A stretch of DNA of 64,000 bases from assembly GCF_900086985.1 (NCBI RefSeq), contig NZ_LT593974.1, forward strand, positions 1,178,001 through 1,242,000. Direction: 5' to 3'. A program made the translations under genes and the position numbers. Of this stretch, positions 30,666-51,426 are shown one piece after another; positions within the stretch are counted from its first letter, which is position 1, and the number at the start of each line of letters is the position of its first letter. Under the pieces are notes generated by a model. It saw nothing but the letters and a program-made list of their open reading frames with translations, ran no database searches and had not been told where the DNA came from. This stretch comes from Halomonas sp. HL-93. GTDB lineage: Bacteria; Pseudomonadota; Gammaproteobacteria; Pseudomonadales; Halomonadaceae.

Positions 30666-30671
30666 ACCACC

Positions 30672-33600: not shown

Positions 33601-33860
33601 GGCCGATCATCATGACCTCGATCGCCTTCACGGCGGCGGTGTTGCCGTCGGTAGTGGCCACCGGCGCAGGCGCCGAGGTACGGGCGGCGCTGGGTACGGC
33701 GGTGTTTGCCGGCATGATTGGGGTGACGCTGTTCGGGCTATTCCTGACCCCGGTATTCTATGTGGCGCTGCGCAAGCTCTCCGGTTCTCGGCCGCTTGTT
33801 AGCCATCACAGCGCTACCTCGGACACCACACCTTACCCCGCCAGCCACCCCCAAAGTTGA
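30672..33860 (+). CDS. RND multidrug efflux transporter (MexF/AcrB-like)
   Basis: 1062 residues, the normal size for HAE1-type pumps. N-terminus MNFSRFFVDRPIFAAVLSII; the TM4 proton-relay pair is in IVVDDAIVVVENVER, and a second TM block (PLSILLVFLVLAALYESWTL) marks the duplicated half. Functions as a trimer exporting hydrophobic compounds by proton motive force. No outer-membrane channel gene follows, so it must borrow one encoded elsewhere. Its last 28 bp overlap the end of the convergent sbtA-like gene. Confidence 0.96.
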   Translation: MNFSRFFVDRPIFAAVLSIIILAVGLISIPNLPISEYPDVVPPSVVVRTVYPGANPKEIAETVATPLEEAINGVEDMMYLKSVAGSDGVLQMTVTFRPGTDAEEAAVRVQNRVSQAEARLPESVRRQGVTTQKQSPTFLMVVHLTSPSGEYDTLYLRNYVRLNVRDRLARLEGVGDAQIFGGGDYAMRAWLDPERIAARGLTAGDVVGAMREQNVQVSAGQLGAEPIEDSDFLTLINARGRLETVEEFGDIVLKRGEGGEILRLADVARLEMGAGDYTLRSQLDSNNAVGVGIFQAPGANALEIREQVVATMDELSEQFPDGVEYEAVYDTTIFVNDSIKSVIATLLEAVLLVVLVVTLFLQTWRASIIPLLAVPVSVIGTFAALYLLGYSINTLTLFGLVLAIGIVVDDAIVVVENVERNIEEGLKPQAAAHQAMREVSGPIIAVGLVLCAVFIPMAFLSGVTGQFYSQFAVTIAISTVISTINSLTLSPALAAMLLKPHDAPKDRLTRVIDTLFGWIFRPFNRFFNASSNKYQGGVARSLKHRGAVFVVYALLLLGTGVMFKAVPPGFIPVQDKLYLIAGVILPEGASLERTDEMLQDVVDIAMETEGVEHAIAFPGLNALQFTNTSNTGVAFLTLSAFGERSLSAAEINARINQGIGGLKEGFAFSFMPPPILGLGNGSGFQLFIEDRGNLGYGALQQAVNQLQGAIAQTPGMGFPISSYQSNVPQLDAEVDRLRAKAQGVPLTELFDTLQTYLGSTYVNDFNRFGRTWQVIAQADAPYRASVEDIARLRTRNDQGEMVPIGTMVDIRQTFGPDPVLRYNGYPAADLAGEFDPRVLSSAQAMDTINGLAEELLPPGMALEWTDLSYQQSTQGNAALVVFPLSILLVFLVLAALYESWTLPLAVILIVPMSMLAALIGVWFGGGDNNIFVQVGLVVLIGLACKNAILIVEFARELELQGKGTVEAALEACRLRLRPIIMTSIAFTAAVLPSVVATGAGAEVRAALGTAVFAGMIGVTLFGLFLTPVFYVALRKLSGSRPLVSHHSATSDTTPYPASHPQS

Positions 33861-37229: not shown

Positions 37230-37955
37230 CTATTTAGCGTGCGATTGACGGTACAACCACCACACATCGACCCCAAACGAGTAGATTAAAGACAGCAGCG
37301 CGCTTAACGCGAGCAGCCCTGCAACGAAGGGCGAAGTTAACGGCGTTAAGGCCAGCAGCAGCGCGGCTACCTGCCACACACACACGGCTTTGCGGCGGAT
37401 GCTTACAAAAAGCGGTTGTGAGAGCCATGTGAATTGCCAGCCTGCAGCCACAAACAGGTACCGCATACCGCCAATTAGCAGCACCCACTCGCCTAACGAG
37501 TCAAGCCACAGCCCTACGCAGAGCAGCATGATCAGCAGGGCGTCCAGTTCCATATCAAAGCGCGCGCCGAATAATGAGTAGCTGTGCGTGCGACGCGCAA
37601 CCCAACCATCAATGCCATCCAGAAGGAGGGCAAGCACGGCAATGGCCAGCCAGGACCATATCGAAGTGGCAAAGGCTTGGGAAGCGAGAGCGCCCGCCAC
37701 CAGTGCGACCAGCACCGCTCGGGCCAACGTTATCCGATTTGCCCAGCCAAGCGACCCATAGGGCCAGTAAGTAATCACCAATCCACTGATTAGCCCATAA
37801 CACAAAACGGCGATGACCCAATTGTACGGCCCAGAAATCAGTGAAGGTAATAGCCAGCCCGAAAGCCCCAGCGCAATACCGCCCAGAACTACTTCCATGG
37901 CTGTCTGACAGCGTTTGGCTGCTGAGATGGGTGGCGTGTTTGTGAAGGAATGCAT
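37230..37955 (-). CDS. CDP-alcohol phosphatidyltransferase family protein
   Basis: 241 residues with about six membrane segments. The full signature is present near residue 115: DGIDGWVARR, then eight residues, GARFDMELD, giving the four metal-binding Asp. It should transfer a phosphatidyl-type group from a CDP-activated donor to an alcohol in the inner membrane; which alcohol cannot be told. AGGAG supports the ATG at 37955 against longer frames up to 38024. It sits next to the pterin-type cluster in divergent orientation. Confidence 0.88.
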   Translation of the reverse strand: MHSFTNTPPISAAKRCQTAMEVVLGGIALGLSGWLLPSLISGPYNWVIAVLCYGLISGLVITYWPYGSLGWANRITLARAVLVALVAGALASQAFATSIWSWLAIAVLALLLDGIDGWVARRTHSYSLFGARFDMELDALLIMLLCVGLWLDSLGEWVLLIGGMRYLFVAAGWQFTWLSQPLFVSIRRKAVCVWQVAALLLALTPLTSPFVAGLLALSALLSLIYSFGVDVWWLYRQSHAK

Positions 37956-38200
37956 GGCTTCTCCTGCCATTACGATCATCGCACTAATAAAATAATTCGA
38001 TGCAAATATTTTTATATGTACCATTCTTGTAGAAGAAGGTAGGGTTGTCTAGTGGTGCCATGTCGAATATCCGTTTGTTTAACGCTACGCTAAAAAGGTC
38101 AGCCCAGTGAACACAATTCGAAGCCAGTCCGGTCTATCTGGCCCCGCTTTGCACAACGGCAGACTCCAGGAAAAGCGAGTGGCACAAGGAAGGGGTGCTG

Positions 38201-39196
38201 ATGAGTGAAATCAACAATGCCACTGCATTTTGGGTGACTTACCCAGGCTGCGGTGAGCTGAGACAAGAAGCGTTGCCCGCTGCGGGCGAGGACGATGTTC
38301 TTGTACGTACGCTTTACAGCGGGATAAGCCGTGGCACCGAGTCACTGGTGTTTCATGCTCGCGTGCCGGAAAGCGAGTTCACCCGCATGCGGGCTCCCTT
38401 CCAGTCGGGCGACTTTCCTACGCCGGTCAAATACGGGTACGCCAATGTCGGCTATGTAACGCATGGGCCCCAGCATTTGATAGATCGGCGGGTGTTTTGT
38501 TTGTTTCCCCACCAAGACCAGTTCGTGGTGCCTGCTTCTGCCGTGACACGGCTTCCCGATGATGTGCCGCCTGAGCGCGCCGTACTGGCCGCCAATATGG
38601 AAACCGCGATTAATGGCGTTTGGGATGCAGAACCGGTACTAGGCGAGCGTATCAGCGTAATTGGTGCCGGTGTGGTTGGCGCGCTGGTGGCCTATTTATG
38701 CGCCCAGATACCAGGCGTCGAGGTGCAACTGGTAGATATTAATCCCTGCCGCGAAGCACTGGCGAAGCAACTGAACGTATCTTTTTGTCTGCCTGATGAG
38801 GCCAGTGCTGAACAGGACTGCGTCATTCACGCCAGCGGCCATCCAGATGGCCTGCGCCAAGCACTTAGCTTAGTAGGTAACGAAGGACGCATTATTGAAA
38901 TGAGTTGGTTTGGCGAAGCCGAACTGGCGCTGCCGCTAGGCGGTGCTTTCCATTCCCAGCGACTTACTCTGCGCGCCAGCCAGGTGGGCCAACTGCCGCC
39001 TAAATTACGCCCGCGGTGGGATTACTCAAGGCGGCTGCGCTTAGCGCTGAATCTGCTGGTGGACGACCGCCTGGATGTGCTGATCAGCGGTGAAAGTGAC
39101 TTTGCCAGCATGCCCGACCTGGCCCTACGGTTGTTTTCAGCCGGCAGCACTGAGCTGTGCCACCGGCTGCGTTATCCCCCCGTAACGTCAACATGA
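38201..39196 (+). CDS. MDR-type dehydrogenase of the pterin/pyrimidine-glycoside-like cluster
   Basis: 331 residues. An MDR-like N-terminus (LYSGISRGTESLVFHARVPE) is followed by a Rossmann motif VIGAGVVGALVAYLCAQIPG and VQLVDINPCREAL. The usual catalytic zinc ligands are not obvious. It matches a group, as I recall, found beside PTPS-like proteins in marine proteobacteria. AAGGAAGGGG before the ATG at 38201. Its stop overlaps an ATG (ATGA) just before the PTPS gene, so the two are coupled. First gene of a four-gene plus-strand operon; presumably oxidises or reduces a biosynthetic intermediate. Confidence 0.85.
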   Translation: MSEINNATAFWVTYPGCGELRQEALPAAGEDDVLVRTLYSGISRGTESLVFHARVPESEFTRMRAPFQSGDFPTPVKYGYANVGYVTHGPQHLIDRRVFCLFPHQDQFVVPASAVTRLPDDVPPERAVLAANMETAINGVWDAEPVLGERISVIGAGVVGALVAYLCAQIPGVEVQLVDINPCREALAKQLNVSFCLPDEASAEQDCVIHASGHPDGLRQALSLVGNEGRIIEMSWFGEAELALPLGGAFHSQRLTLRASQVGQLPPKLRPRWDYSRRLRLALNLLVDDRLDVLISGESDFASMPDLALRLFSAGSTELCHRLRYPPVTST

Positions 39197-39207
39197 CAGG
39201 AGTGTCT

Positions 39208-39606
39208 ATGTACCGCTTATGTGTTCGTGATCACTTTATGATTGCCCACAGCTTCAAGGGCGAGGTCTTTGGCCCTGCCCAACGTACCCACGGCGCGACG
39301 TACGTGGTGGATGTGATCTTCCAGCGTCCCGAGTTGGACGACGATGGCTTGGTCATCGATATTGGCTTGGCGAGCGAGACTGTAAAAGCGGTGCTGGCGG
39401 GCTACAACTACCAGAACTTGGACGAAGTGAGCGAGCTTCAGGGTAAGAACACCACCACCGAGTTCATGGCCAAGGTGATTTTCGACCAGCTCGCCGCGGC
39501 GATTAACGCCGGTGAGATGGGCACGACGGCCCGTGGGTTGACCCGTCTGGAAGTCAAGCTGCATGAATCGCATGTGGCCTGGGCAAGCTACGAAGGCGCG
39601 CTATGA
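39208..39606 (+). CDS. PTPS/QueD-fold protein with replaced active-site residues
   Basis: 132 residues, the length of 6-pyruvoyl-tetrahydropterin/6-carboxytetrahydropterin synthases. Of the three zinc His, the first (MIAHSF) and the second (THGATY) are kept, but the third is Ala. The catalytic Cys position is GPAQ, and the Asp-His pair is replaced in AGYNYQNLDE. The C-terminal Glu (HESHVAWASYEG) is retained. It is therefore a homologue with changed chemistry or a binding role. CAGGAG is five bases before the ATG at 39208. Its stop overlaps the start of the glycosyltransferase gene (ATGA). Confidence 0.88.
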   Translation: MYRLCVRDHFMIAHSFKGEVFGPAQRTHGATYVVDVIFQRPELDDDGLVIDIGLASETVKAVLAGYNYQNLDEVSELQGKNTTTEFMAKVIFDQLAAAINAGEMGTTARGLTRLEVKLHESHVAWASYEGAL

Positions 39607-41549
39607 ATCAGCGTTTCAGCTTGATTGTGGCCGGCGACCCTGACCAGCGTACCGGCGGCTACCTTTACGATGCCCATATCGTCGAGGCGCTGCGGGCTCA
39701 GCATTGGGCAATTGAGGTGATCGGCCTGGAAGGCACGTTCCCCGATGCCGACGAAAGCGCGGCCCGGGCACTTGAGCAAACGTTGGCAAACCAGCCTGAT
39801 GGCGCCGCCGTGGTCATTGATGGATTGGCCATGGGAGCACTGCCCGACGTGGTAGCCCGCCACACCGAGCGCCTGGCCATCACTGCGCTGGTGCATCACC
39901 CGCTGGGCGATGAGTTGGGACTGAATACGGCTGACCAGCAGAGGCTACACCGCAACGAACTGCACGCGCTTGCTGCTGTACCGCGCATTATTGTGACCAG
40001 CCACTTTACCGCCCGCCGCTTGTCGGCGCTTGCCGATGACTACGCCATACCGCTAAGAGCCAACATCAGCGTCGTCGAACCCGGCGTTGAGCAGGCGCCG
40101 GTTAGCCCAGCCTGTGAAGCGGGTGAATCGTTGCGGCTGTTGTGTGTGGCCACCTTAACGCCTCGCAAAGGGCAGGATGTGTTGATTGAAGCGCTGGCGG
40201 GCCTTGACGCGAGCGGATGGCGCTGCGATTGCTACGGTGGCGCGCGGGATGCCGAGTTCACCCTGCGGCTGCAGTATTTGGTCGAGTTTCACGATCTTGA
40301 AGCGAATGTCACCCTGCATGGTGAATGCGACAGCGACACCCTCGAAGCGGCCTATCAGCGCGCCCATGCGCTGGTGCTACCTTCCTGGTACGAGGGTTAC
40401 GGGATGGTGGTGACCGAAGCGCTGGCCCATGGCCTGCCGGTGATCACTACCACCGGCGGCGCGCTGCGCGATACCTTGCCTGCCGGTGCTGGCTTGAGTG
40501 TGGAGCCAGGCGACGTAGAGGCCCTGCAACACGCCATTGAGCAGTTCTGCAATGATGCACCGTTGCGCGCATCGCTGCGTCAAGGGGCCATTGAAGCCCG
40601 CCAAGCGCTTAATGACTGGCAGGATGCTGCCACGGCGTTTGCCGGTGCACTGACGTCAGCGCCTGTATCTATGGCCTCGGGTAGCGAGTTTGCAGCCTCG
40701 TGGCTGGCGTTGCGTGAACCCGTGGATCGTGCCGCGCGTTCCCAGCGTTTGGCCATGCTGGCCGGAGAGTGGCTAGCTGCTTGCCCCGGTCCTTATCGGC
40801 TGGTGGATCTTGGCTGTGGCCGGGGCAGTAATGTTCACTACCTGGCCCCCCGTCTACCTGGCCCGCAAACCTGGACCTTGATCGACCACGACGCGACATT
40901 GCTCAGCGAAGCCCGGGCGAGATTGATGACCCTGCGCGACGCAGACGGGCAGTCGATTGTCGCCGAAACCCAGGCGGCATCTTTCGCCCACCTCGATACG
41001 CAAGCGTTGAACGGTGCCCATCTGATCACTGCATCGGCGTTGCTCGATTTGGTATCTGAACGCTGGATCGACGCGTTGGTTGCCCACTGCGCGAGGCACC
41101 GCCAGGGACTCCTCATGGCGCTTAGCGTTAGCGGTGAATGGTGGTTTACCGATCGCCATCAGCGGCCTATTGCCGACGACGAAGACCGGTGGGTGCTTGA
41201 GTTATTTTGCGCTCACCAACAGCGCGACAAAGGCCTCGGTGAGGCACAGGGCGGCCACGCCCATGCAACACTGGCCGCTGCCTTTGAGGGCGTCAATTAC
41301 CGCATTGAAGAAGCCAATACGCCATGGCAGCTATCCGTGGAAGATGCTGCTCATCGGCCACTGATGGCGTCATTGATTGACGGTTGGGCGACGGCAGCTA
41401 GCGAGCACGCGCCTGAGGCCGCTGTACGCATTGCCAACTGGGCCGTGCAGCGCTGTCATGCTGTCGCCAGCGGTGAACTGGGTATTTGGGTCGGCCACCG
41501 TGACCTGCTGGCTTTGCCCATGGAAGTTCAACCCCAGGGGCAGGGGTAA
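39603..41549 (+). CDS. Fusion: family 4 glycosyltransferase and SAM methyltransferase
   Basis: 648 residues in two parts. Residues 1-360 form a GT-B retaining glycosyltransferase: N-terminal domain, linker LRLLCVATLTPRKGQDVLIE, and the donor-binding EGYGMVVTE (E-x7-E) near 265. Residues 370-640 form a class I methyltransferase with the SAM loop VDLGCGRGSN near 403 and an acidic residue at LIDHD. No signal peptide. Glycosylation and methylation of one product in one polypeptide is suggested. Coupled upstream and, 4 bp apart, downstream. Confidence 0.88.
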   Translation: MNQRFSLIVAGDPDQRTGGYLYDAHIVEALRAQHWAIEVIGLEGTFPDADESAARALEQTLANQPDGAAVVIDGLAMGALPDVVARHTERLAITALVHHPLGDELGLNTADQQRLHRNELHALAAVPRIIVTSHFTARRLSALADDYAIPLRANISVVEPGVEQAPVSPACEAGESLRLLCVATLTPRKGQDVLIEALAGLDASGWRCDCYGGARDAEFTLRLQYLVEFHDLEANVTLHGECDSDTLEAAYQRAHALVLPSWYEGYGMVVTEALAHGLPVITTTGGALRDTLPAGAGLSVEPGDVEALQHAIEQFCNDAPLRASLRQGAIEARQALNDWQDAATAFAGALTSAPVSMASGSEFAASWLALREPVDRAARSQRLAMLAGEWLAACPGPYRLVDLGCGRGSNVHYLAPRLPGPQTWTLIDHDATLLSEARARLMTLRDADGQSIVAETQAASFAHLDTQALNGAHLITASALLDLVSERWIDALVAHCARHRQGLLMALSVSGEWWFTDRHQRPIADDEDRWVLELFCAHQQRDKGLGEAQGGHAHATLAAAFEGVNYRIEEANTPWQLSVEDAAHRPLMASLIDGWATAASEHAPEAAVRIANWAVQRCHAVASGELGIWVGHRDLLALPMEVQPQGQG

Positions 41550-41553
41550 CGCC

Positions 41554-43410
41554 ATGGCGAATGCACAATGGTGGCGCTCCCCGTGGTTACGCCGCGTGGC
41601 CGTCAGCAGTTTGTTGCTGGGGGCGGTTGCGATGTGGGTCGAACCCCAGGCGATTTTTGCGCAGGTTCAGCAGTTGTCGCCAAGCTGGGTGCTGTTGGCG
41701 CTGTTGATTAGCGTGGGTCAGGTAGCTCTCAGCGCCTGGCGATGGCAACTGACGGCCAAATTAATACAGGTACCGATGCGCTTTGGTTACGCGCTGCGCG
41801 AATATTACCTCGCCTTGCTGGTTAATCAACTGTTGCCGGGGGGCGTATTGGGTGATGTGGGCCGTGCCCATCGGCATGCCGCCCAGTCAGCTTCCCGAGG
41901 GCGTGCATGGCGCGCAGTGATTATCGAACGTATCTCGGGGCAGTTGGCTTTAGCCTTGCTGACGTTGGTGGCGCTTGCGCTGTCGCCGCTGTGGCACGCG
42001 GCGTTGGGCTGGTCTGCATGGTTATCCATCGGCCTGGTGGCGCTGCTGGCAACAGGGCTTATAGCGGTCGCTTTGAGTCTGGCGTTTCTTAAGGGGGCGG
42101 TAACGTTACCCGGCTGGTGTCTGGACGTTGGAAGCGATATCCAGCGTGGACTATTAACGCCTGGCGTTTGGCCTATCCAACTGCTGTCCTCGCTGACGAT
42201 TGTGGTCAGCTATGGGGTGGTGATGGTGTGTGCGGCGCGGGCAATTGGCGTTGAACTGCCAGTGCTGAGCCTGCTGGCACTGGCACCCGTGGTGCTGCTC
42301 GCTATGCTAGTGCCTGTTTCGGTTGCTGGCTGGGGCGTACGTGAAGGTGCGGCCGCGGGCGTGTGGGCCTGGGTGGGCTTGCCTGCTGCGCAGGGCGTAG
42401 CGGTATCGCTGGCCTACGGGGTGATCGTGCTGCTTGCCAGTTTGCCGGGCCTTTGGGTGGCCATTGGCCACCGTCAGTCTGCGCTACCTCCCGAAAGCGG
42501 CCGGGCGAAGCAGAACGTCGAAAAGGGTGTCTTCTCCGCAGCGGAAAGTTCGCAGGGCAGGGCGCAGCGCACTGTCCAGCGTTTCGATCGGGGTCATTTG
42601 CAAGCCGGGGCGGCCCGAGCCGATCAGCAGCGGGGCGACCAACAAATGCAGCCGGTCCACTACTCCCGCCTCGATAAACTGCGAGACCGTGATGCCACCG
42701 CCTTCGACCAGAATCCGGCGCAATTGGTGCGTGTCGAGCAGCTCAAGCACATCGCGGGGCACAAATTGGCCGCGGCGATCCAGCGGCAGCACACAACGCT
42801 CCACCGCATCGGGCGGGACAGGAAGGCAAGCGTCAGGTCCCACCACATGAAGCGTGGGCGCAAGGTCGCTTTGGAACAGTTGCCGACCCATCGGCACACG
42901 GCCACGCGGGTCCAGCACCACGCGCGTGGGGTGGGCACCGCTAACGTGACGCACGGTCAATTGCGGATTATCGGCGTCGGCGGTGCCGGCGCCGATAATC
43001 ACCGCATCTGCCAGTGCCCGCAACCGGTGCAGATGCACCAGGCTAGCCCGACCATTGATGTAGTGGGAGTGGCCACTTTGGGTGGCGATCCGCCCATCCA
43101 GGCTTTGTCCCAGCTGTGCCACCACCCACGACGCTGTTGTCGCCAGGGGAGCCAGGCAGCTCACCAGTTCGTTGGCTTCATCGGATATCGTCTGCCCGTC
43201 ATCCAGAGGGTACCCCGCCAGCAGTTGCTGCCAGATAGTGTCTGGGATGATGCAAGCGTGGGGGCTCACTCGATTCGTACGTTCCATGGAGTCGGGCATG
43301 ACGCCTCCGTGTGGGATCAACCGTTGCATCATGCGTTGCACGGTGGCCCAGCGCAAGCGCCATCCGCCCATCGCGCCAGTCAGTCAGGAGACTTCTATGT
43401 ATCACATTGA
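41554..43410 (+). CDS. Flippase-like membrane protein (LPG synthase TM / UPF0104 type); C-terminal half of frame doubtful
   Basis: The homologous part is about residues 1-315 (to near 42500): several membrane segments, LLVNQLLPGGVLGDVGRAHR, and GWGVREGAAAGVW, as in the AglD/LPG-synthase membrane family proposed to flip lipid-linked substrates. Beyond that the frame stays open for another 300 codons, to 43410, with low-complexity Gln/His/Arg-rich sequence. That part is exactly antisense to the RibD-type reductase gene and is unlikely to be real protein. The natural stop may have been lost. Start ATG 4 bp after the fusion gene. Confidence 0.65.
   Translation: MANAQWWRSPWLRRVAVSSLLLGAVAMWVEPQAIFAQVQQLSPSWVLLALLISVGQVALSAWRWQLTAKLIQVPMRFGYALREYYLALLVNQLLPGGVLGDVGRAHRHAAQSASRGRAWRAVIIERISGQLALALLTLVALALSPLWHAALGWSAWLSIGLVALLATGLIAVALSLAFLKGAVTLPGWCLDVGSDIQRGLLTPGVWPIQLLSSLTIVVSYGVVMVCAARAIGVELPVLSLLALAPVVLLAMLVPVSVAGWGVREGAAAGVWAWVGLPAAQGVAVSLAYGVIVLLASLPGLWVAIGHRQSALPPESGRAKQNVEKGVFSAAESSQGRAQRTVQRFDRGHLQAGAARADQQRGDQQMQPVHYSRLDKLRDRDATAFDQNPAQLVRVEQLKHIAGHKLAAAIQRQHTTLHRIGRDRKASVRSHHMKRGRKVALEQLPTHRHTATRVQHHARGVGTANVTHGQLRIIGVGGAGADNHRICQCPQPVQMHQASPTIDVVGVATLGGDPPIQALSQLCHHPRRCCRQGSQAAHQFVGFIGYRLPVIQRVPRQQLLPDSVWDDASVGAHSIRTFHGVGHDASVWDQPLHHALHGGPAQAPSAHRASQSGDFYVSH
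42484..43299 (-). CDS. RibD C-terminal-type (pyrimidine) reductase, no deaminase domain
   Basis: 271 residues. After an N-terminal region of about 50 residues of unknown role comes the reductase fold: VVAQLGQSLDGRIATQSGHS, INGRASLVHLHRLRALADAV, GAGTADADNPQLTVR, and RILVEGGGITVSQFIEAGVV. The zinc-binding HAE/PCxxC deaminase motif of RibD is absent, so it resembles archaeal/fungal diaminopyrimidine reductases. GGAGG before the ATG at 43299; divergent from the RibA-type gene with 97 bp between. It lies entirely antisense to the open 3' half of the flippase frame. Confidence 0.88.
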   Translation of the reverse strand: MPDSMERTNRVSPHACIIPDTIWQQLLAGYPLDDGQTISDEANELVSCLAPLATTASWVVAQLGQSLDGRIATQSGHSHYINGRASLVHLHRLRALADAVIIGAGTADADNPQLTVRHVSGAHPTRVVLDPRGRVPMGRQLFQSDLAPTLHVVGPDACLPVPPDAVERCVLPLDRRGQFVPRDVLELLDTHQLRRILVEGGGITVSQFIEAGVVDRLHLLVAPLLIGSGRPGLQMTPIETLDSALRPALRTFRCGEDTLFDVLLRPAAFGR

Positions 43411-44497
43411 ACGCGCCATTTTTGATATTAGACGAGGACTTCCCGTGGTGGTTAAAGCGGGTGAACAGCAACTGCTGGTTCAGGCGTTGGAGGGCGGTGA
43501 GTCAATTAACGAATTGGCACATTTGTCCGGTTCTCGTCCATCGCTAGTGTTAACGCGACATCGTTTAGAGGCCATAGGCGTATCTATCACCGCGGACGCC
43601 GCGCATCTACCCTTGGCTACCCATATCGACGAGCAGGCCCTACACGCGCTTGCGGTGGGACAGCTAAGTGAGGATGAAGCACCTGCCTGGTTGAGCGGCC
43701 TGCAGCCAGCCGGCATGGGTGAGCGGGGCGCGGTCGCATTGATGCGCCGGGCTCTGCTAATCCCTGCCGCGTTGATAGCCGTTGTCAGTGATAAGGCAGC
43801 AGCAGGCATCGCCCACCGGCTGGCAAAAGGCGAATTGCTCGCGGTAGACGCCCATGATGCTGAAACCTGCCTTGCCGGTGCACCGGGCATGCTAAAGCGC
43901 GTCAGCGAGGCCACTATTCCATTAGAAAACGCTGCTGAGAGCCGGTTTGTGTTATTTCGTGAGCCAGACGGGCTGCGTGAGCACGTCGCGGTGGTGATTG
44001 GACGTCCTGAGGAAAACACCGAGGCCGTGCCGTTACGTATGCACTCTGCGTGTTTAACCGGCGACCTGTTTGGCAGCCTGCGCTGCGACTGTGGCGAGCA
44101 GCTGCGCAATGCCGTTGCCGATATTGAGGCGATGGGGGGTGGCGTGCTGTTGTATCTGGCCCAGGAGGGGCGGGGGATTGGACTGGCTAACAAGCTTCGT
44201 GCATACACGTTGCAAGATGGCGGCTTGGATACGGTCGACGCCGATCAGGTACTGGGGTTTGGCGATGATGAGCGTGACTATGCCGTCGCGGTCGACATGC
44301 TGCGTGCCCTGGGTATTTCCCGCGTGCAGTTATTGACCAATAATCCATTGAAGATGCAGGCGCTCAGCGAGGGTGGGATTGAGGTAGTCGCTCGCCAGGC
44401 GCTGTATGGCCGTTTGACCGACCAGAACCATCGTTATCTCAATGCCAAAGCCACCCGGGCCGGGCACTTTTTGGAAGATGTATTAAGTAGTAAGTAG
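43397..44497 (+). CDS. GTP cyclohydrolase II (RibA-type) with degenerate RibB-like N-terminus
   Basis: 366 residues. The C-terminal half is a full GTP cyclohydrolase II: RMHSACLTGD, zinc Cys in CLTGDLFGSLRCDCG (C-x10-C-x-C), LYLAQEGRGIGLANKLRAYT and LLTNNPLKMQAL. The N-terminal 160 residues align loosely with DHBP synthase (RAIFDIRRGLPVVVKAGEQQ ... LVLTRHRLEAIGV), but the acidic metal-binding DDEDREN motif is gone, so that half should be inactive. CAGGAG before the ATG at 43397. Makes the diaminopyrimidine precursor from GTP for the neighbouring enzymes. Confidence 0.92.
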   Translation: MYHIERAIFDIRRGLPVVVKAGEQQLLVQALEGGESINELAHLSGSRPSLVLTRHRLEAIGVSITADAAHLPLATHIDEQALHALAVGQLSEDEAPAWLSGLQPAGMGERGAVALMRRALLIPAALIAVVSDKAAAGIAHRLAKGELLAVDAHDAETCLAGAPGMLKRVSEATIPLENAAESRFVLFREPDGLREHVAVVIGRPEENTEAVPLRMHSACLTGDLFGSLRCDCGEQLRNAVADIEAMGGGVLLYLAQEGRGIGLANKLRAYTLQDGGLDTVDADQVLGFGDDERDYAVAVDMLRALGISRVQLLTNNPLKMQALSEGGIEVVARQALYGRLTDQNHRYLNAKATRAGHFLEDVLSSK

Positions 44498-44500
44498 AAA

Positions 44501-44546
44501 GAAGGAAGAAGGAAGAAGGAAGAAGGAAGAAGGAAGAAGGAAGAAG
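44501..44546 (+). repeat. Heptanucleotide tandem repeat (GAAGGAA)n
   Basis: Six full copies of GAAGGAA plus GAAG in the 64-bp gap between the convergent RibA-type and creatininase-type genes. Slipped-strand copy-number change is likely, but no start codon or promoter spans it, so an effect on expression is uncertain. Confidence 0.95.
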
Positions 44547-44561
44547 CCTAAGTTGTCAGCG

Positions 44562-45338
44562 CTAAGCCTTTTTAAGTGGCGGCAGGCTGGCGGTTTCGGT
44601 CACCACTCTGGCCAACTGGCGGGCGTAATGGTCAACCAAACGCGCGCCTAGTTCGGCGGTTGCCTGGCGTGCATCACCCGCGACGCCTTGCGCGCTTAGA
44701 TCTTCCGCTAGCCAGGCGAAGGCGGCGGCACCCTCGGGGGCTACCAACCCTTCGCCTTGATAAGCCACAGGCGAGGGGGCTTGGTAGCCGTCTAGTTGAA
44801 CCAGCGTTGGCGCTAAGTGCAGCATCATGGCGGTTTCAAGCGCGCCGCCGTGCAAGCCGTTACGAAGTTCATCCGCGTCAATCGCATCGTCAAGCGGCGG
44901 CAAGCGGGTGTAAGTCGCTTTTACCACGCGCATGCCATGGCGGCGGCGCAGCGTCAGTGCAGCTAAGTCCATCACGGCTTTGTTACCGCCGTGGCTGTTA
45001 ATTAACACCAGACGATGAATTCCTGTGCGGGCTAGGCTATCGCCGTAGGCCTCCAGAGTGGCGATGGCCAGCGGCGCGGGCAGGCTAAGCGTACCCGGGA
45101 AGCTTGCGTGCTCATCGCTGGCGCCCACGGCGATCGGCGGTAGGCAGAGTGCGTCAACACAAGGTGCTAGCTGTTCCAGCATGGCGCTTTGTAGGCCTTC
45201 ACCGATGGTCAGATCTGTTGCCAAAGGAAGGTGGGTGCCGTGTTGTTCAATGGCGCCAAGCACCAACACCGCCACCGGGTCACGTTGGGCGAACTCGGCT
45301 AACTGCGATGCGGTGAGCATTTGCCAGTGGTGAATCAT
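44562..45338 (-). CDS. Creatininase-family amidohydrolase (ArfB/MftE-like superfamily)
   Basis: 258 residues with all superfamily metal motifs: GAIEQHGTHLPLATD (Glu, His, Asp ligands) near residue 30, GASDEHASFPGT, INSHGGNKAV near 115 and LHGGALETAMML. Related enzymes open or trim C-N bonds of cyclic ureas and formylaminopyrimidines; archaeal ArfB deformylates a GTP-derived pyrimidine. Adjacent to RibA- and RibD-type genes this suggests action on a pyrimidine intermediate, which is inference. It lies 12 bp after the FkbM gene as the last member of the opgGH transcript. Confidence 0.85.
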   Translation of the reverse strand: MIHHWQMLTASQLAEFAQRDPVAVLVLGAIEQHGTHLPLATDLTIGEGLQSAMLEQLAPCVDALCLPPIAVGASDEHASFPGTLSLPAPLAIATLEAYGDSLARTGIHRLVLINSHGGNKAVMDLAALTLRRRHGMRVVKATYTRLPPLDDAIDADELRNGLHGGALETAMMLHLAPTLVQLDGYQAPSPVAYQGEGLVAPEGAAAFAWLAEDLSAQGVAGDARQATAELGARLVDHYARQLARVVTETASLPPLKKA

Positions 45339-45350
45339 TGGTTAACGTGC

Positions 45351-46133
45351 CTATTGGGTAGTTAAGAGGTGCGGATGGTCGTCGCGGCAGGCGTAAAGAT
45401 CGCCGGAAGGCAAAGCCTCGGCTCCGTCACTTAGCCACTGGATGATAGCCTGCGGTGTCTGCCACTCAGCCCAGCGGAAATGGCGTTGCTCTCCGGCCAC
45501 CACATTGTAGCGATAATCGCCGAGGCGGCTTAACCGGTTAACGCAGGCGTGGGTTACCTCCAAGGCGCCTGCGACAAACTCCACCGAAAGTGCTGCCACC
45601 GGGCAGCTTAGCCCGGCCAGCACCTCGGCTTCAAAGCCTTCTACATCAATCTTGATAAAGCTGGGTTCGCCGTAGTCGCTGATTAGCTGATCCAAAGTAG
45701 TGACGGGCACGCGAAGCCGTTGTTCCCAGCGTACTTGGCTAAAGCCTGCGTTGCGTTGACCAATCTGCTCGCGCCAGTCAGTCGCCAGTGTCGAAAGCGT
45801 GGGGTTGCTTTGGCTAATGGCAATTTCAGCAAACCCCGCGGTGGGTCCTGCGGCCAGCGGTAGTAACGTGACATTTGACGTTTTTATCATGCGTTTGAAC
45901 CACTTGGCGAGTGCCGGCTGTGGTTCAAGGGCGACGACCCGGGCTCCCAATGCATTGAACGCAGCGCTTCGGTCACCCAGGTGGGCCCCGATATCAAATG
46001 CGGGTTTGTTGCTAACAATGAAGGGTTGGTACAGCCGCTTCAACCCTCGCTGGCGCCCAGGTCGCCAGTAGATAAATAGCGATCGGGCAAGTCCGCCCGC
46101 ATGCCGCAGCTGTTGCGGACACCAACGCTGCAT
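45351..46133 (-). CDS. FkbM family methyltransferase
   Basis: 260 residues. SAM-binding start FDIGAHLGDRSAAFNALGAR, then VVALEPQPALAKWF, LPLAAG, and the FkbM end motif IKIDVEGFEAEVLAGL near residue 165. Such enzymes O-methylate sugars and polyketides. Its ATG overlaps the opgH stop (TAATG), so it is coupled to opgH and may modify periplasmic glucans, or the product of the neighbouring cluster. Confidence 0.88.
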   Translation of the reverse strand: MQRWCPQQLRHAGGLARSLFIYWRPGRQRGLKRLYQPFIVSNKPAFDIGAHLGDRSAAFNALGARVVALEPQPALAKWFKRMIKTSNVTLLPLAAGPTAGFAEIAISQSNPTLSTLATDWREQIGQRNAGFSQVRWEQRLRVPVTTLDQLISDYGEPSFIKIDVEGFEAEVLAGLSCPVAALSVEFVAGALEVTHACVNRLSRLGDYRYNVVAGEQRHFRWAEWQTPQAIIQWLSDGAEALPSGDLYACRDDHPHLLTTQ

Positions 46134-48121
46134 TAATGAGGCTCCTTGAAGGTGGCCGAAGGGTTGGTGGCTGCTTGGCGATCAAATTGTTTGAACGACT
46201 GGCAGGGCATCTCACCTCTGTGCTCAGCAGGCGTGGGCACCAATGGGAAAGGATGCTGGGTTGTTGGGTCTAGCGGGTAAGGGTGGCTATTTTCCACCAG
46301 GGTTTCAAACGCCTCTAATAACGGTGGTTTTAACGTACTGCTGGGCGTTTTAAGTAGCCCCAGGCGATAGCGAACAACGCCCCCCCAGGTGCCGCTACTT
46401 GTGTATTTTACCAACGGGGCGGCACCCACTAACCCAAGCCAAGCGGGAGTTAGCCAGCCAAAAGCCGTTGGTGAAAAGACTACCATAATCCCCGCCCAGA
46501 GTAGCCCGCTCAGCGTCATCCAGCCGGTGTGCTGCCAGGTTTCCCGCCAGCTAAGCGAGCGCTCACCGCGTGGTTGGGTTTGCCACTCGATGGAGCGCCC
46601 CAGCAATACGTTGATGATGAAAAGACTGTGCCAAGCCATCATCAGCGGGGCGATTAAAGCAGCAAATACCATTTCAAGGCAGGTGCTCACGATCAAGCAC
46701 AACCGGCCCCCAAAGGCGTGAGGCGCTTGCCATAAAGCCAGCCCCAGCCCGAGTAATTTAGGGGCCAGTAGCATGCCAAGAGTGATCGACAACAGCCCGA
46801 GCGACAGTGGCTGAGGTAGGGGATGGCCGGACACTTCACCCAATACATGATAGGTCACCAGCACACTGGTGCAGATCAGCAAGCCTAGCCACACCAGCGA
46901 TGATAAGTAGGCGAAGGCGCCGTAAAAAAAGTGCAGCCGGCTAAGTGGGTGTAAGCCTGCTCCGCCCAACAGGCGCAAGTGCTGAAGGTTGCCTTGGAGC
47001 CAGCGGCGGTCGCGTTTGGCAAAATCGAGTAAATTACTCGGCATGGCTTCGAAGCTGTTGTGCGATGCGCTGACGTAGGGGTTATGACGCGAGACAGCGG
47101 TGGTCACCGTGGTGTCCAGCAACACCTGCCAGCCGCCGCGCTTAAGCAGTGCAGCCTCAACAAAATCATGGCTGAGCAGTTCACCGCCCATCGGTGGCTT
47201 GCCAGGTAGTGTTGGCAAGCCGGCGTGGTCCATAAAAGCGCGGGTGCGGATGATGGCATTATGCCCCCAGTAGTTGGCGGCATCGCCCTGCCAGAAACTT
47301 TGGCCAGCCGCCAGCATGGGGCTATATAGCGCTGAGGCAAACTGGGTAAAACGGCCAAATAGCGTCTTTTGGCCTACCGGGATCGGCACAGTTTGGATCA
47401 TCCCAATACTTGGTTGGCGCTGCATGCGCTGGACCATTCGTAGCAGCGTGGCACCGCTCATCAAGCTGTCGGCGTCCAGCACGACCATAAAATCGTAACG
47501 CCGCCCCCAACGGCGGCAGAATTCCGCGATATTGCCCGCTTTTCGGCCGTTGTTGTTGGGACGCCGCCGGTAATGGATAGCGAGCTCGCCAGCAAAGCGA
47601 CGTTGCAAAGCCGCTACGTGGGCTTCTTCCAGCTTCGCATGGTCAGTGTCCTGGGTATCGCTGAGAATAAAGACGTCAAAATGCTCGCTCAGCGGATTAG
47701 CCGCTTCCTGCTCGTCGTGATCATCAAGCGCATGTGCTAAAAGCGAGCGGCAGGTGGCTTCCAGCCCTGCAAAGGTGGGAATCGGCGGTTCGGCGTAAAT
47801 CGGCATAACAAGCGCTGTGCGGCTGACCAGCAAGCGTGCATTGGGTATTTCTCGGCTGAGTCGGCGCAGGCTAAGGGGGTCGAGATTCAGTGCGCATACA
47901 ACAAAGCCGCAGAGCGCCCCCCAAAATGCCAGCGCGATCCAGGTAAAAGTGAGCGCAAACAGCATGAGCATGGCGATCTGCCAACCCATGGCCAGGCTCA
48001 ACGTTACCCGATACATGGCAATGCACCCCGCCACGCTTGAGACCAGTACCGCGATGGCTAAGAGCGCTCGACGTGTTTTCAGCCAGGGAATCGAGGGTAT
48101 CAGGGCGCTTGTATCAGTCAT
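46133..48121 (-). CDS. opgH: Glucans biosynthesis glucosyltransferase OpgH
   Basis: 662 residues. Membrane GT2 enzyme that polymerises UDP-glucose into osmoregulated periplasmic glucan and exports it. Visible: N-terminal membrane segments, SDTQDTD and VVLDADSLMSG for nucleotide-sugar binding, LLSHDFVEAALLKRGG, and the (Q/R)xxRW motif in RDRRWLQGNLQH near residue 370, then five or six C-terminal membrane segments. Starts inside the end of opgG (ATGACTGA overlap). Confidence 0.95.
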   Translation of the reverse strand: MTDTSALIPSIPWLKTRRALLAIAVLVSSVAGCIAMYRVTLSLAMGWQIAMLMLFALTFTWIALAFWGALCGFVVCALNLDPLSLRRLSREIPNARLLVSRTALVMPIYAEPPIPTFAGLEATCRSLLAHALDDHDEQEAANPLSEHFDVFILSDTQDTDHAKLEEAHVAALQRRFAGELAIHYRRRPNNNGRKAGNIAEFCRRWGRRYDFMVVLDADSLMSGATLLRMVQRMQRQPSIGMIQTVPIPVGQKTLFGRFTQFASALYSPMLAAGQSFWQGDAANYWGHNAIIRTRAFMDHAGLPTLPGKPPMGGELLSHDFVEAALLKRGGWQVLLDTTVTTAVSRHNPYVSASHNSFEAMPSNLLDFAKRDRRWLQGNLQHLRLLGGAGLHPLSRLHFFYGAFAYLSSLVWLGLLICTSVLVTYHVLGEVSGHPLPQPLSLGLLSITLGMLLAPKLLGLGLALWQAPHAFGGRLCLIVSTCLEMVFAALIAPLMMAWHSLFIINVLLGRSIEWQTQPRGERSLSWRETWQHTGWMTLSGLLWAGIMVVFSPTAFGWLTPAWLGLVGAAPLVKYTSSGTWGGVVRYRLGLLKTPSSTLKPPLLEAFETLVENSHPYPLDPTTQHPFPLVPTPAEHRGEMPCQSFKQFDRQAATNPSATFKEPH

Positions 48122-49649
48122 CGGGATACCACACGTAATTCCAGGTTTCGCTAACGGGGGCGCCCTCCAGGGTCAGCCGTAGGCGAATATCGCTGGGTTG
48201 GTCGTCGGCGGGTAGCCGGAAGCTAGCGCGCCAGCCATTGTTTGGCAGCGGGGTGACCTGGGGCTGTTTTATCTCCCCTTGTTGGGTGCTGATGTCGAGC
48301 TCGACGGGACTCTCGGCGGCAATATCGTCAAGCTCGCCGCCCTGGAAATCGACAATAAATTGACGCTCGCCCTCGCGAGACGGTTCTGCTTGACCCGGCA
48401 CCTCCGCGCGTCCGTGGCGGGTGCGTACCACGCGGCCCAGCGTATGGCTTTCCGGTTGTGTATTGAGCGTATGGGTTTGGTAGTGCAAGCGACGTGATTC
48501 ACCAGCCTCCAACGGGGCGTCGGCGACCCAGTATGCGACAATATTGTCGTGGGTCTCGTCAGGCGCGGGAATCTCCACCAGTTCAACGTGGCCTTGGCCC
48601 CAGTCTTCAAGTGGCTTTACCCATTGGCTGGGGCGACGGTGATACTGCGCTTCGGTGTCCAGGTAACGGTTGAAATCGCGTTCGCGCTGCATCAGCCCAA
48701 ACCCCTTGGGGTTATCGTCAGTAAAGGACGAAATACGCACGCTTTCGGGGTTATTTAGCGGCCGCCAAATCCACTCGCCGGTTCCCGTTTGTATCAGCAG
48801 CCCATCAGAGTCGTGAACTTGAGGGCGGAAGTCATCGGGACGTTCGCGACTGGCTTCGCCGAAGGTGAACATGCTGGTAAGGGGCGCGAGGCCCAATTTG
48901 CCGACATCTTCGCGGGCGAATAACTCTGCTTCGACCTCTACCTGAGTATTATCGCCGGGCTTAATCACAAAGCGATAAGCGCCGCTCAGCGACGGGCTAT
49001 CCATCAGCGCGAGTAATTCTAATTGCTCGGCGTCAGCCTCGGGTTTGTATAGCCAAAATTCACGGAAAGCAGGAAACTCTTCTCCGTCAGCTGAAGCGGT
49101 ATCGATAGCTAATCCCCGGGTCGATAAGCCGTATGCCTGATCGCGTCCTACCAGCCGGAAATAGCTTGCGCCGAGAAACACCGCAAATTCGTCGGCGTAG
49201 TCGTCGCTGTTAAGTGGGTAGTGCAGACGGAACCCAGCATGACCACTGCCTGTTAGGTCATCGTCAAGCAATGCACGGGCATCGTCATCGTAGGAAAAGT
49301 CATCTGTCGAGAAGCGTAACGGCGACACCTCGTCGTTCTCAATCACGTTGAGTCGAACCGGCGCCTGGAACAAAAAACCGCTGTGAAATAATTGCAGATT
49401 GAAAGGGCTCTCGTCACGCCAGTATGCGTGCGATGGATCAAAGCGAATCTGTCGGTAGGTATCGTAGTCGATCTCGCGGAGCGCAGCAGGCAAATCTTCT
49501 TCAGGCGGCTGATAGGGGGTATCGGCCAACTCTCGTGCCTTGTCTAACACGGTTTGGTAATGAGTGTGTTGATCCGCCATCGCTGGCAGCGTGGTCAGCG
49601 CGCTAGTAATAATGACGAGCAACGTTCCTTTCGCTATTTGTTGCATCAC
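48114..49649 (-). CDS. opgG: Glucans biosynthesis protein OpgG (periplasmic)
   Basis: 511 residues. Signal peptide (about MQQIAKGTLLVIITSALTTL, cut after AMA), then the MdoG domain from YDTYRQIRFDPSHAYW through LFHSGFLFQAPVRLNV and RGLAIDTAS, ending in an Ig-like part. It branches or remodels the periplasmic glucan made by OpgH. The frame starts at a GTG at 49649 with an ATG directly after. First gene of the opgG-opgH-fkbM-creatininase transcript. Confidence 0.95.
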   Translation of the reverse strand: MMQQIAKGTLLVIITSALTTLPAMADQHTHYQTVLDKARELADTPYQPPEEDLPAALREIDYDTYRQIRFDPSHAYWRDESPFNLQLFHSGFLFQAPVRLNVIENDEVSPLRFSTDDFSYDDDARALLDDDLTGSGHAGFRLHYPLNSDDYADEFAVFLGASYFRLVGRDQAYGLSTRGLAIDTASADGEEFPAFREFWLYKPEADAEQLELLALMDSPSLSGAYRFVIKPGDNTQVEVEAELFAREDVGKLGLAPLTSMFTFGEASRERPDDFRPQVHDSDGLLIQTGTGEWIWRPLNNPESVRISSFTDDNPKGFGLMQRERDFNRYLDTEAQYHRRPSQWVKPLEDWGQGHVELVEIPAPDETHDNIVAYWVADAPLEAGESRRLHYQTHTLNTQPESHTLGRVVRTRHGRAEVPGQAEPSREGERQFIVDFQGGELDDIAAESPVELDISTQQGEIKQPQVTPLPNNGWRASFRLPADDQPSDIRLRLTLEGAPVSETWNYVWYPDD

Positions 49650-49827
49650 AATGATGTCCTTTCAGTTGCTGGTCTAATCGCTATCTTCTACCACTTCGTG
49701 CAATTTTTAAACAATAGTTATACATTTGGCTAGTAAAGTACATGCTGAGTGTATTTACCAGCACCGCCGTTCTCGTGCGACGATATGGCACTCCTTCACT
49801 CTGTTGGCAACGGATGGCAAGCCTGCA

Positions 49828-51426
49828 ATGCGTCGATTATGGATAGGGGCGTTAGCGCTCAATATAGGCTTGGTGGCGCCGCTGTGGTGGCGCTACGGCG
49901 ACATCCAGGCAAATGTGATCGCCTGGGAGGCCTGGTGGGTCATGCCGATGATGCTGCTGGTGCCCAGAGGGCGCTTCAGCCTTGGGCTGGGCGTTGCACT
50001 GGCAAGTTGGCTCATCCTGGCCACGTTGATCAACCTCGGAGACGCTGCTACTTACACCGCCTTTGGTCGACCGCTAAATCTCTATCTCGATACGCCGCTG
50101 CTGGGCTCCGTTTATGACTTGCTTGTTGGTAATGTAGGCCAAGTTTGGGCGATTTGCGCAATGTTAGTGGCGGTTATGCTGCTAGCGGGGCTTGCGGTCG
50201 GTGTGATCAAGTTGCTGCGCCCGAGAGCGGGTTACCCGCTAACCCTGGGAACGAAGCGAGTAGCGCTTGCAATGCTGGTGTGCGCGAGCCTAGGCATAGG
50301 ACTTGAGCTTGGCGGTAAGCGTGTCATCGTGCACGCGAGCCTACCGGCGGTGAAGGCCACTCACGACCAGGCGCAACAATTATGGGCCACCCATCAGGCG
50401 AAACAAGCATTCACACGCACGCTTGCAGCATCTCCCATTGAGCAGCGTTCGCTAAGCGGCTTGGCGGGGCGCCGGGTGCTGATGACGTTTATCGAATCCT
50501 ACGGTGTATCGGCGTTGGCAGATGATCGTTATCGCCCGGCGGTGGCCCCGACGCTTGACGAGATTGAGCAACGCCTAGCAGGACGCGATATTGCAGTGGT
50601 ATCTGGGCTGCTCAAATCGCCGATTCGTGGCGGACAATCCTGGCTTGCCCATGCCACTGCGTTAAGTGGTTATACCATCGACAATCAGCTGTGGTACCAA
50701 CTGATGCTGGACAGCGAGGCAACCACGCTAGTGGACGATTTTAGTGCCACTGGGCAGCGCACCCTGGCGGTGATGCCCGCCATCACCCAAGCGTGGCCGG
50801 AAGGCGCGGCCTATGGATTTGACGAGCTAGTAGTGGAGAAAGACATCGACTACGCCGGGCCCATGTTGAACTGGGTGACCATGCCCGACCAGTTCACTCT
50901 GGACTATACTCAGCGCGAACTGCTGGATGAATCGCCGGTCTTTGCTCAACTGGCGCTGATCTCAAGCCATGCGCCTTGGACGCCGATTTTGCCGGTATTG
51001 GACGATTGGTCGACCATTGGCGACGGGGCGATTTTCGCCCCATGGGAGGAGGCAGGCGACCCGCCGGAAGTGTTATGGCAGGACATCGAGCGTATCCGCG
51101 AGCACTACGCCTGGTCGATCGACTACTCGATTAAAACGGTGGGACGCTGGGCTGAACGTGTAGCGGATGATAATACGTTGCTCATAGTACTTGGCGACCA
51201 TCAGCCGGCCCCAATGATTACTGGCGACGATGCTAGCGGCGCGGTACCGGTGCACATCATCAGCGGCGACCCCGATTTGCTCGCCCCGTTTCAAGCCAGA
51301 GGATTTGTTTCGGGCATGTGGCCCGCGTCTGAAAGCGAAGCGCCCGCCGCCGAGTTAAGCCAACTGCGGCGCTGGCTCCACGCTGATTTTGCCTCTGACA
51401 CTAACAACTCAAGGACGGCGCCATGA
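49828..51426 (+). CDS. Sulfatase-fold membrane transferase (OpgB/LTA synthase-like)
   Basis: 532 residues. Four or five N-terminal membrane segments (to about residue 150), then a periplasmic alkaline-phosphatase-superfamily domain beginning RVLMTFIESYGVSALADDRY with the nucleophile region, a central SGLLKSPIRGGQSWLAHATA, and the metal motif VLGDHQPAPMI. Related enzymes transfer phosphoglycerol to periplasmic glucans, fitting its divergent position to opgGH; phosphoethanolamine transfer is an alternative. The ATG at 49828 is preferred; the frame is open from 49726. Overlaps manC by ATGA. Confidence 0.8.
   Translation: MRRLWIGALALNIGLVAPLWWRYGDIQANVIAWEAWWVMPMMLLVPRGRFSLGLGVALASWLILATLINLGDAATYTAFGRPLNLYLDTPLLGSVYDLLVGNVGQVWAICAMLVAVMLLAGLAVGVIKLLRPRAGYPLTLGTKRVALAMLVCASLGIGLELGGKRVIVHASLPAVKATHDQAQQLWATHQAKQAFTRTLAASPIEQRSLSGLAGRRVLMTFIESYGVSALADDRYRPAVAPTLDEIEQRLAGRDIAVVSGLLKSPIRGGQSWLAHATALSGYTIDNQLWYQLMLDSEATTLVDDFSATGQRTLAVMPAITQAWPEGAAYGFDELVVEKDIDYAGPMLNWVTMPDQFTLDYTQRELLDESPVFAQLALISSHAPWTPILPVLDDWSTIGDGAIFAPWEEAGDPPEVLWQDIERIREHYAWSIDYSIKTVGRWAERVADDNTLLIVLGDHQPAPMITGDDASGAVPVHIISGDPDLLAPFQARGFVSGMWPASESEAPAAELSQLRRWLHADFASDTNNSRTAP

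Follow-up and report, generated by a model that had tools for sequence, protein, structure and literature searches.

A conserved gene cluster of riboflavin-type enzymes, a PTPS-fold protein and glycosyltransferase genes in Halomonas sp. HL-93

The gene cluster described here, located at 38.2-45.3 kb of a 64,000-nucleotide stretch (the window) of the 4.14 Mb, single-contig genome of Halomonas sp. HL-93, belongs to a family of which parts already occur in older Streptomyces work, namely SCO6650 (through PDB 3d7j) and SCO6655. In studies by Spoonamore from 2006 and 2008, SCO6655 is reported to be a GTP cyclohydrolase and SCO6650 to have the PTPS fold without PTPS activity; SCO6650 reportedly lacks zinc. 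Methionine at the switch position of SCO6655 reportedly halts the reaction at the formylated pyrimidine, with the formyl group kept. In archaea, ArfB and ArfC catalyze consecutive steps. SCO6655 also appears in a table of PMC2853524. With the S. coelicolor SCO6650-SCO6655 region the cluster shares the PTPS-fold ortholog, and the Streptomyces loci that we surveyed (S. coelicolor itself not being among them) carry a single array of genes for a CDP-alcohol transferase, the dehydrogenase, the PTPS-fold protein, GT4, methyltransferase, flippase, creatininase and RibA. Their RibA is of the Met type without a RibB half and has no RibD nearby, whereas the window has a Tyr-type RibA with a RibB-fold half, together with RibD, fkbM and opgGH.

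Two other systems invite comparison. The archaeal ArfA-ArfB-ArfC route and bacterial BrbF (PMC9478397) resemble the cluster in GTP opening, creatininase-family deformylation and reduction ahead of deamination; formamidase activity on the formylated pyrimidine has been proven for BrbF, a creatininase-family protein of Sinorhizobium, and the enzyme behind this substrate was not found in that study. Unlike these systems, the cluster would open GTP by a GTP cyclohydrolase II (GCH II) homolog and not by GCH III, its creatininase and reductase score under the ArfB and ArfC models, and tailoring genes replace the flavin genes of the Arf system. The toxoflavin and pseudoiodinine pathways (PMC9911603) likewise place riboflavin-type GCH II and RibD beside methyltransferases for a non-flavin product, but the cluster differs from them by the missing deaminase and by its PTPS fold, MDR enzyme, GT4 and envelope genes. 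A literature search, with most subscription papers outside its reach, returned no paper on this gene set and no product. This agrees with the initial annotation, made from the sequence alone, which knew of no assigned product; that statement needs amending insofar as SCO6650 (PDB 3d7j) and, reportedly, SCO6655 of the homologous Streptomyces coelicolor locus have been studied.

Conservation and composition of the cluster

Our preferred reading, held with moderate confidence, is that the locus draws GTP off from the riboflavin route into a glycoside of pterin or pyrimidine type, which in this host is envelope-linked; the reactions, the ring chemistry and the product in this reading are inferred. 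All genes named in the initial annotation are present at 38201..45338, i.e. an MDR-type dehydrogenase, a PTPS-fold protein, a GT4-methyltransferase fusion, a flippase-like protein, a RibD-type reductase, a GCH II and a creatininase-family protein. Relatives were collected in two surveys. In the first, contigs were scanned with the dehydrogenase alignment, at least 585 relatives were confirmed and the best 80 genome loci retained; five plasmid loci and the window itself bring the set to 86 loci, picked for closeness and partly on short contigs. Because of that selection an independent sample was drawn from 398 genomes spread evenly over the phylum, namely 18 loci outside the window's family, of 15-20 kb each. 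The dehydrogenase was found in 27 of the 398 genomes (19 of 212 genera), and in the window's own family in 124 of 201 genomes, representing 13 of 24 genera; among the matches listed, the closest kin by locus are Halomonas and Vreelandella.

A gene for the PTPS-fold protein occurs at all 86 and all 18 independent loci, and RibD lies near this core at 68 and 15, RibA at 54 and seven, respectively. The GT4 and methyltransferase profiles are cross-contaminated by fused open reading frames (ORFs), and their counts, 86 and 86 of the 86 loci and 17 and 13 of the 18, are to be read as "GT4 and/or methyltransferase". Dehydrogenase and PTPS fold recur jointly in Pseudomonadota, Acidobacteria, Gemmatimonadetes and Actinomycetota; in the first three of these they are kept together with GT4 and/or methyltransferase and RibD, in differing orders and on differing strands, and in Streptomyces with GT4/methyltransferase and no RibD nearby. 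The locus is a conserved biosynthetic cluster whose genes are inherited together, and the co-occurrence across genomes that the initial annotation had put up for checking is borne out, as the core is kept across phyla. Mantel tests on protein distances (r 0.73 to 0.95), uncorrected for species descent, are not used as support. GT4 and methyltransferase are separate genes in annotated relatives.

The cluster is also separate from the riboflavin and queuosine genes of its host. Elsewhere in the genome a ribD with deaminase, a ribBA with RibB and ribH lie together, a further RibA is present, and queC and queE stand beside a two-domain PTPS gene. A further GCH II was found in 19 of the 20 searched genomes with a cluster RibA, and a further RibD_C protein in all 13 searched genomes that also have a cluster RibD. 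The ribA and ribD of the cluster are thus not the only ones of the host, and the refuting case named in the initial annotation, in which sole copies simply serve riboflavin synthesis, does not apply.

By sequence comparison, the PTPS-fold protein is the ortholog of Streptomyces SCO6650: a profile of six sequences, including that of the window, matched PDB 3d7j with an E-value of 9.1e-60 over positions 1-132 of 134. Throughout the 86 loci its active site is altered, the third zinc histidine being alanine in 85, the catalytic aspartate asparagine in 79 and the catalytic histidine tyrosine or phenylalanine in 73; for this audit the E. coli reference sequence was entered by hand, and the first zinc histidine, in an alignment gap, was not judged. 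With 45.3 bits against the QueD model (cut-off 89.25) the protein falls outside the PTPS/QueD family, and PTPS/QueD chemistry appears to be lost. The dehydrogenase is called zinc-less on the basis of the zinc motifs of MDR enzymes. Its best match, among weak ones, is the BchC model TIGR01202 (54.5 bits, under the cut-off of 291.25), which leaves it outside BchC, and it carries KYGY at 86 of 86 loci, a motif partly selected for as one search pattern ended in KYG. The identities ArfB, ArfC and BchC were all rejected, each lying below its model cut-off.

The window's RibA belongs to GCH II (189.5 bits for the domain, cut-off 23.3), and the zinc cysteines and the EGRG motif are found in 53 of the 54 cluster RibAs, the remaining copy being a split ORF. 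With positive controls run, an active RibB motif was found in none of the 54 cluster RibAs and a deaminase in none of the 68 cluster RibDs, as the initial annotation had claimed for the window's RibB-like half and RibD. In a tree from one FastTree run, with at most 33 selected cluster copies and few housekeeping copies, the cluster RibAs are polyphyletic. Acidobacterial copies join the housekeeping copy of their own (0.994) and the Planosporangium copy joins a Streptomyces housekeeping RibA (0.999), while those of Pseudomonadota (0.926) and of Streptomyces (1.0) each form one clade, the latter weakly tied to the Streptomyces housekeeping copy (0.65). Since they are not one clade, GCH II activity would have been recruited repeatedly, on this tree at least three and probably four times.

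Against TIGR01508 (ArfC/RED) the window's RibD reached 93.9 bits, under the cut-off of 186.45, which places it outside ArfC. In the PDB the family profile is closest to the 2,5-diamino-6-ribosylamino-pyrimidinone phosphate reductases 6p8c and 2azn, which act on a non-deaminated substrate. For the creatininase, whose profile was built without the fused ORF of L081, 46 of 48 copies carry the NxHGGN motif; its scores against the ArfB model NF033501, 21.1 bits in the window and 38.7 in a Streptomyces locus (L082), lie below the cut-off of 180 and outside ArfB. A metagenome-assembled genome (MAG) of Gemmatimonadetes has creatininase and RibD_C fused in a single ORF, which may tie deformylation to reduction in the manner of the consecutive archaeal ArfB and ArfC.

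A proposed route from GTP and its alternatives

On family resemblance, GCH II would open GTP, the putative creatininase-family formamidase would strip the formyl group where needed and the RibD-type reductase would reduce the ribosyl chain; for want of a deaminase, the 2-amino group of the ring would stay in place. The intermediate would then be 2,5-diamino-6-ribitylamino-4(3H)-pyrimidinone 5'-phosphate, which the T-fold protein and the zinc-less, BchC-like dehydrogenase may tailor, probably to a pterin- or pyrimidine-type compound that is presumably glycosylated by GT4 and methylated by the methyltransferase. In this genome the CDP-alcohol phosphatidyltransferase could join the product to a phospholipid, the flippase-like protein could turn the lipid-linked product over, and the LtaS/GacH-fold enzyme could pass a phospho-headgroup to a periplasmic acceptor.

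The order of the first steps can be compared with Streptomyces. Methionine is at the switch position of RibA in all nine Streptomyces loci with RibA and in no other cluster copy, and these nine all have the creatininase and none has RibD nearby; all 15 readable housekeeping copies have tyrosine, three further ones, apparently badly extracted, having been left out as their switch motif was unreadable. The Met-type RibA beside a creatininase, the fusion ORF and BrbF fit, by analogy, an Arf-like order of opening, deformylation and reduction. RibA and creatininase co-occur at 38 of 45 loci with RibA as against four of 15 without it (Fisher p 7e-5, not corrected for relatedness), counted over 60 well-covered loci after 26 of the 86, with less than 8 kb on one side, had been dropped.

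Several observations weigh against the proposed route. The window's RibA has tyrosine at the switch and is thus not of the SCO6655 type, so a formamidase should not be needed, yet the creatininase is nearby; tyrosine, creatininase and RibD occur together in 29 of the 60 loci. For that reason we rejected a strict rule by which a Met-type RibA needs a creatininase and a Tyr-type does not. In the nine Streptomyces loci, with RibD not near, the reduction goes unexplained, and of the independent loci 11 lack RibA near the core and three lack RibD. Neither the envelope linkage nor the formamidase is general, as CDP-alcohol transferase and flippase are each present at four of 18, the LtaS/GacH-fold gene at two and the creatininase at one. 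GT4 is missing in one annotated plasmid locus (L008), and the roles given to the PTPS-fold protein and the dehydrogenase are putative.

A possible, though clearly less probable, alternative is that the cluster makes a small natural product, soluble and secreted, in the manner of toxoflavin or pseudoiodinine, with the lipid and glucan genes as mere neighbors. The similar recruitment of GCH II, RibD and methyltransferases in those pathways (PMC9911603), the plasmid-borne copies of the cluster and the six of 18 independent loci with neither CDP-alcohol transferase nor MdoH speak for it, but Rhizobiaceae plasmids hold lipid genes and core in one block, and conservation in 124 of 201 genomes of a family is unlike a patchy antibiotic. 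Furthermore, the WD-repeat and sulphatase-modifying-factor types listed for pseudoiodinine in that paper were not recognized among the recurrent families, no search having been aimed at them.

That the locus is a second riboflavin or flavin-secretion module is improbable. It does contain RibA, RibD and a candidate formamidase in the creatininase, and separate flavin modules are proposed for Sinorhizobium in PMC9478397, but the RibB and deaminase motifs are absent as described, neither RibH nor RibE was recognized in those cluster genes that were examined, a separate ribD-ribBA-ribH run and a RibA are present in the host, and riboflavin synthesis has no use for the conserved PTPS fold, dehydrogenase and GT4. 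Plain riboflavin supply was rejected on the lost motifs and the other copies in host and relatives. An ordinary queuosine, tetrahydrobiopterin or folate-type pathway is highly improbable: public records annotate the PTPS-fold gene as 6-carboxytetrahydropterin synthase, but the loss of the third zinc histidine and, in most copies, of the catalytic Asp-His pair, the QueD score and the separate queC, queE and two-domain PTPS gene led us to reject queuosine and tetrahydrobiopterin synthesis. Lastly, chance neighborhood instead of one pathway deserves hardly any credence, for even if the flanking envelope genes, RibA and creatininase vary by clade, the repeated recruitment of RibA and the cross-phylum recurrence in varying order and strand (without RibD in Streptomyces) already contradict it for dehydrogenase, PTPS fold, GT4/methyltransferase and RibD, if not for creatininase and opgGH.

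The interpretation in the initial annotation, a diversion of GTP to a glycosylated and membrane-linked pyrimidine or pterin, is hence partly supported. Of its gene set the core stands and the creatininase, at 48 of the 86 selected and one of the 18 independent loci, does not stand as a general member; the CDP-alcohol phosphatidyltransferase, the LtaS/GacH-fold protein, the link to opgGH, YceI and cytochrome b561 were missing from it.

Envelope genes and further features

Table 1. Features of the cluster and its surroundings, with positions in the window.
Feature	Position	Strand	Basis and remarks
RND-type efflux adaptor + permease pair	29478-33860	+	Upstream of cluster; judged from ORFs by eye
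CDP-alcohol phosphatidyltransferase	37230..38024	-	Pfam PF01066, 52.9 bits; divergent to dehydrogenase
MDR-type dehydrogenase without zinc-ligand motif	38201..39196	+	Nearest NCBIfam model BchC, far under cut-off
PTPS-fold (T-fold) protein, SCO6650 type	39208..39606	+	PDB 3d7j match; PTPS/QueD active-site residues lost
GT4 glycosyltransferase-class I methyltransferase fusion	39603..41549	+	Pfam PF00534, PF13649
LPG_synthase_TM/flippase-like protein	41554..43410	+	Pfam PF03706, 129.6 bits, residues 16-298; domain end ~42447
RibD_C reductase without deaminase domain	42484..43371	-	Pfam PF01872, 127.7 bits
GTP cyclohydrolase II, PRK08815 type	43397..44497	+	N-terminal RibB-fold half without RibB motif; switch residue Tyr
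Creatininase-family amidohydrolase	44562..45338	-	Pfam PF02633, 217.6 bits; metal motifs intact
FkbM-family methyltransferase	45351..46133	-	Pfam PF05050, 63.3 bits
OpgH/MdoH glucosyltransferase (periplasmic glucans)	46133..48121	-	NCBIfam NF003958, 671.8 bits, cut-off 419
OpgG/MdoG periplasmic glucan protein	48114..49649	-	Pfam PF04349, 641.3 bits
LtaS/GacH-fold membrane protein, alkaline phosphatase superfamily	49726..51426	+	Predicted structure; membership by recurrence
Mannose-1-phosphate guanylyltransferase/isomerase	51423-52832	+	TIGR01479, 667 bits

The four plus-strand genes from the dehydrogenase to the flippase-like gene (Table 1) are separated by gaps of 4-11 bases or overlap by 4 bases; ribD is convergent with the latter and ribA divergent from ribD. 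On the minus strand opgG, opgH, fkbM and creatininase form a tight run, the creatininase being last, with overlaps of 8 and 1 base followed by a 12-base gap. This run is found in the window and its relatives, at 13 of 21 MdoH-bearing loci. In Methylosinus, Bradyrhizobium and eight of the 18 independent loci opgH instead stands divergently beside the dehydrogenase, and in Marinobacter opgG-opgH lies on the opposite strand; from these varied placements the association of the cluster with opgGH would have arisen in more than one arrangement.

The CDP-alcohol phosphatidyltransferase gene occurs at 77 of the 86 loci (family motif in 77 of 77 copies) and four of the 18, and the flippase-like gene at 56 and four, respectively. 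The creatininase count of 48 includes two truncated copies (L048 and L090). FkbM was found at 27 and five, MdoG at 23 and two and MdoH at 21 and ten, and the LtaS/GacH-fold gene at 25 and two as well as on three of three annotated Rhizobiaceae plasmids. YceI (19 of 86, three of 18) and cytochrome b561 (seven of 18; two of 86, where the profile may miss others) suggest a redox or lipid-carrier role.

The predicted model of the LtaS/GacH-fold protein is closest to LtaS and GacH, at 11-17% identity, and both the fold and the metal and nucleophile residues agree with an LtaS/GacH-type enzyme. The nucleophile of LtaS is threonine. Compared with LtaS/GacH/OpgB-type phosphoglycerol transferases, the window's protein has serine at that position. 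An envelope link is likely in this host and not general. A more specific proposal has this enzyme move a ribityl-pterin or diaminopyrimidine headgroup, carried on a lipid and made by the locus, onto osmoregulated periplasmic glucans; the placements of opgG and opgH by the cluster speak for it, but we regard it as rather unlikely. The guanylyltransferase/isomerase gene overlaps the LtaS/GacH-fold gene by 4 bases, and a supply of GDP-mannose for the cluster from this TIGR01479 gene is possible. A GalU (UDP-glucose) gene family lies near the cluster in six loci (L055, L057, L061, L067, L073 and L086; one member checked, 386 bits). In Methylosinus (L006), an RND-type adaptor/permease-like pair similar to that upstream in the window adjoins the cluster.

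Among plasmids, 21 records have a PTPS match, and of the 11 examined the dehydrogenase adjoins in nine and not in the two from Streptomyces. By annotation, the latter (L005 and L009) carry a SCO6650-type PTPS gene but no cluster, and BTAD-domain regulators and cupin genes lie close to that gene. Two Rhodobacterales plasmids (L098 and L008) have a ribokinase-like PfkB kinase near the cluster, and in L098 a GT4 gene accompanied by one of the inositol-monophosphatase family is there as well. The cluster is also borne by a 5 kb contig that carries the label of a Natrialbaceae MAG (L025); its dehydrogenase shares 65% identity with that of the window, and the contig is probably misbinned bacterial DNA. 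In Vreelandella lionensis (L020), cluster RibA and PTPS are each matched in two ORFs, which suggests frameshifts or sequencing errors.

The flippase-like frame (41554-43410) is stop-free, in codon register, antisense across the entire ribD. The same open frame is found in 21 of 42 convergent loci, all from Halomonas-type genera, with an overlap of 774-1014 bases. TTA, CTA and TCA codons are nearly absent from ribD of the overlapped loci and likewise from some non-overlapped ribD genes, so codon usage alone may account for the antisense frame.

Meaning for the family

The locus would bring a creatininase into one pathway with two orphan Streptomyces results, a PTPS-fold protein reported to lack PTPS activity and a GTP cyclohydrolase reported to retain the formyl group. 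It thus offers a candidate enzyme class for a question raised by PMC9478397, namely from which bacterial enzyme a creatininase-family formamidase receives its formylated pyrimidine. Halomonas and Streptomyces coelicolor are among the hosts that allow laboratory culture and mutation. We know of no earlier description of a periplasmic pterin or diaminopyrimidine decoration as a kind of compound; if the glucan-decoration proposal is true, the periplasm of these bacteria would carry a possibly redox-active one. Found across phyla and without a named product, the cluster may lead straight to a common bacterial molecule that has yet to be named.

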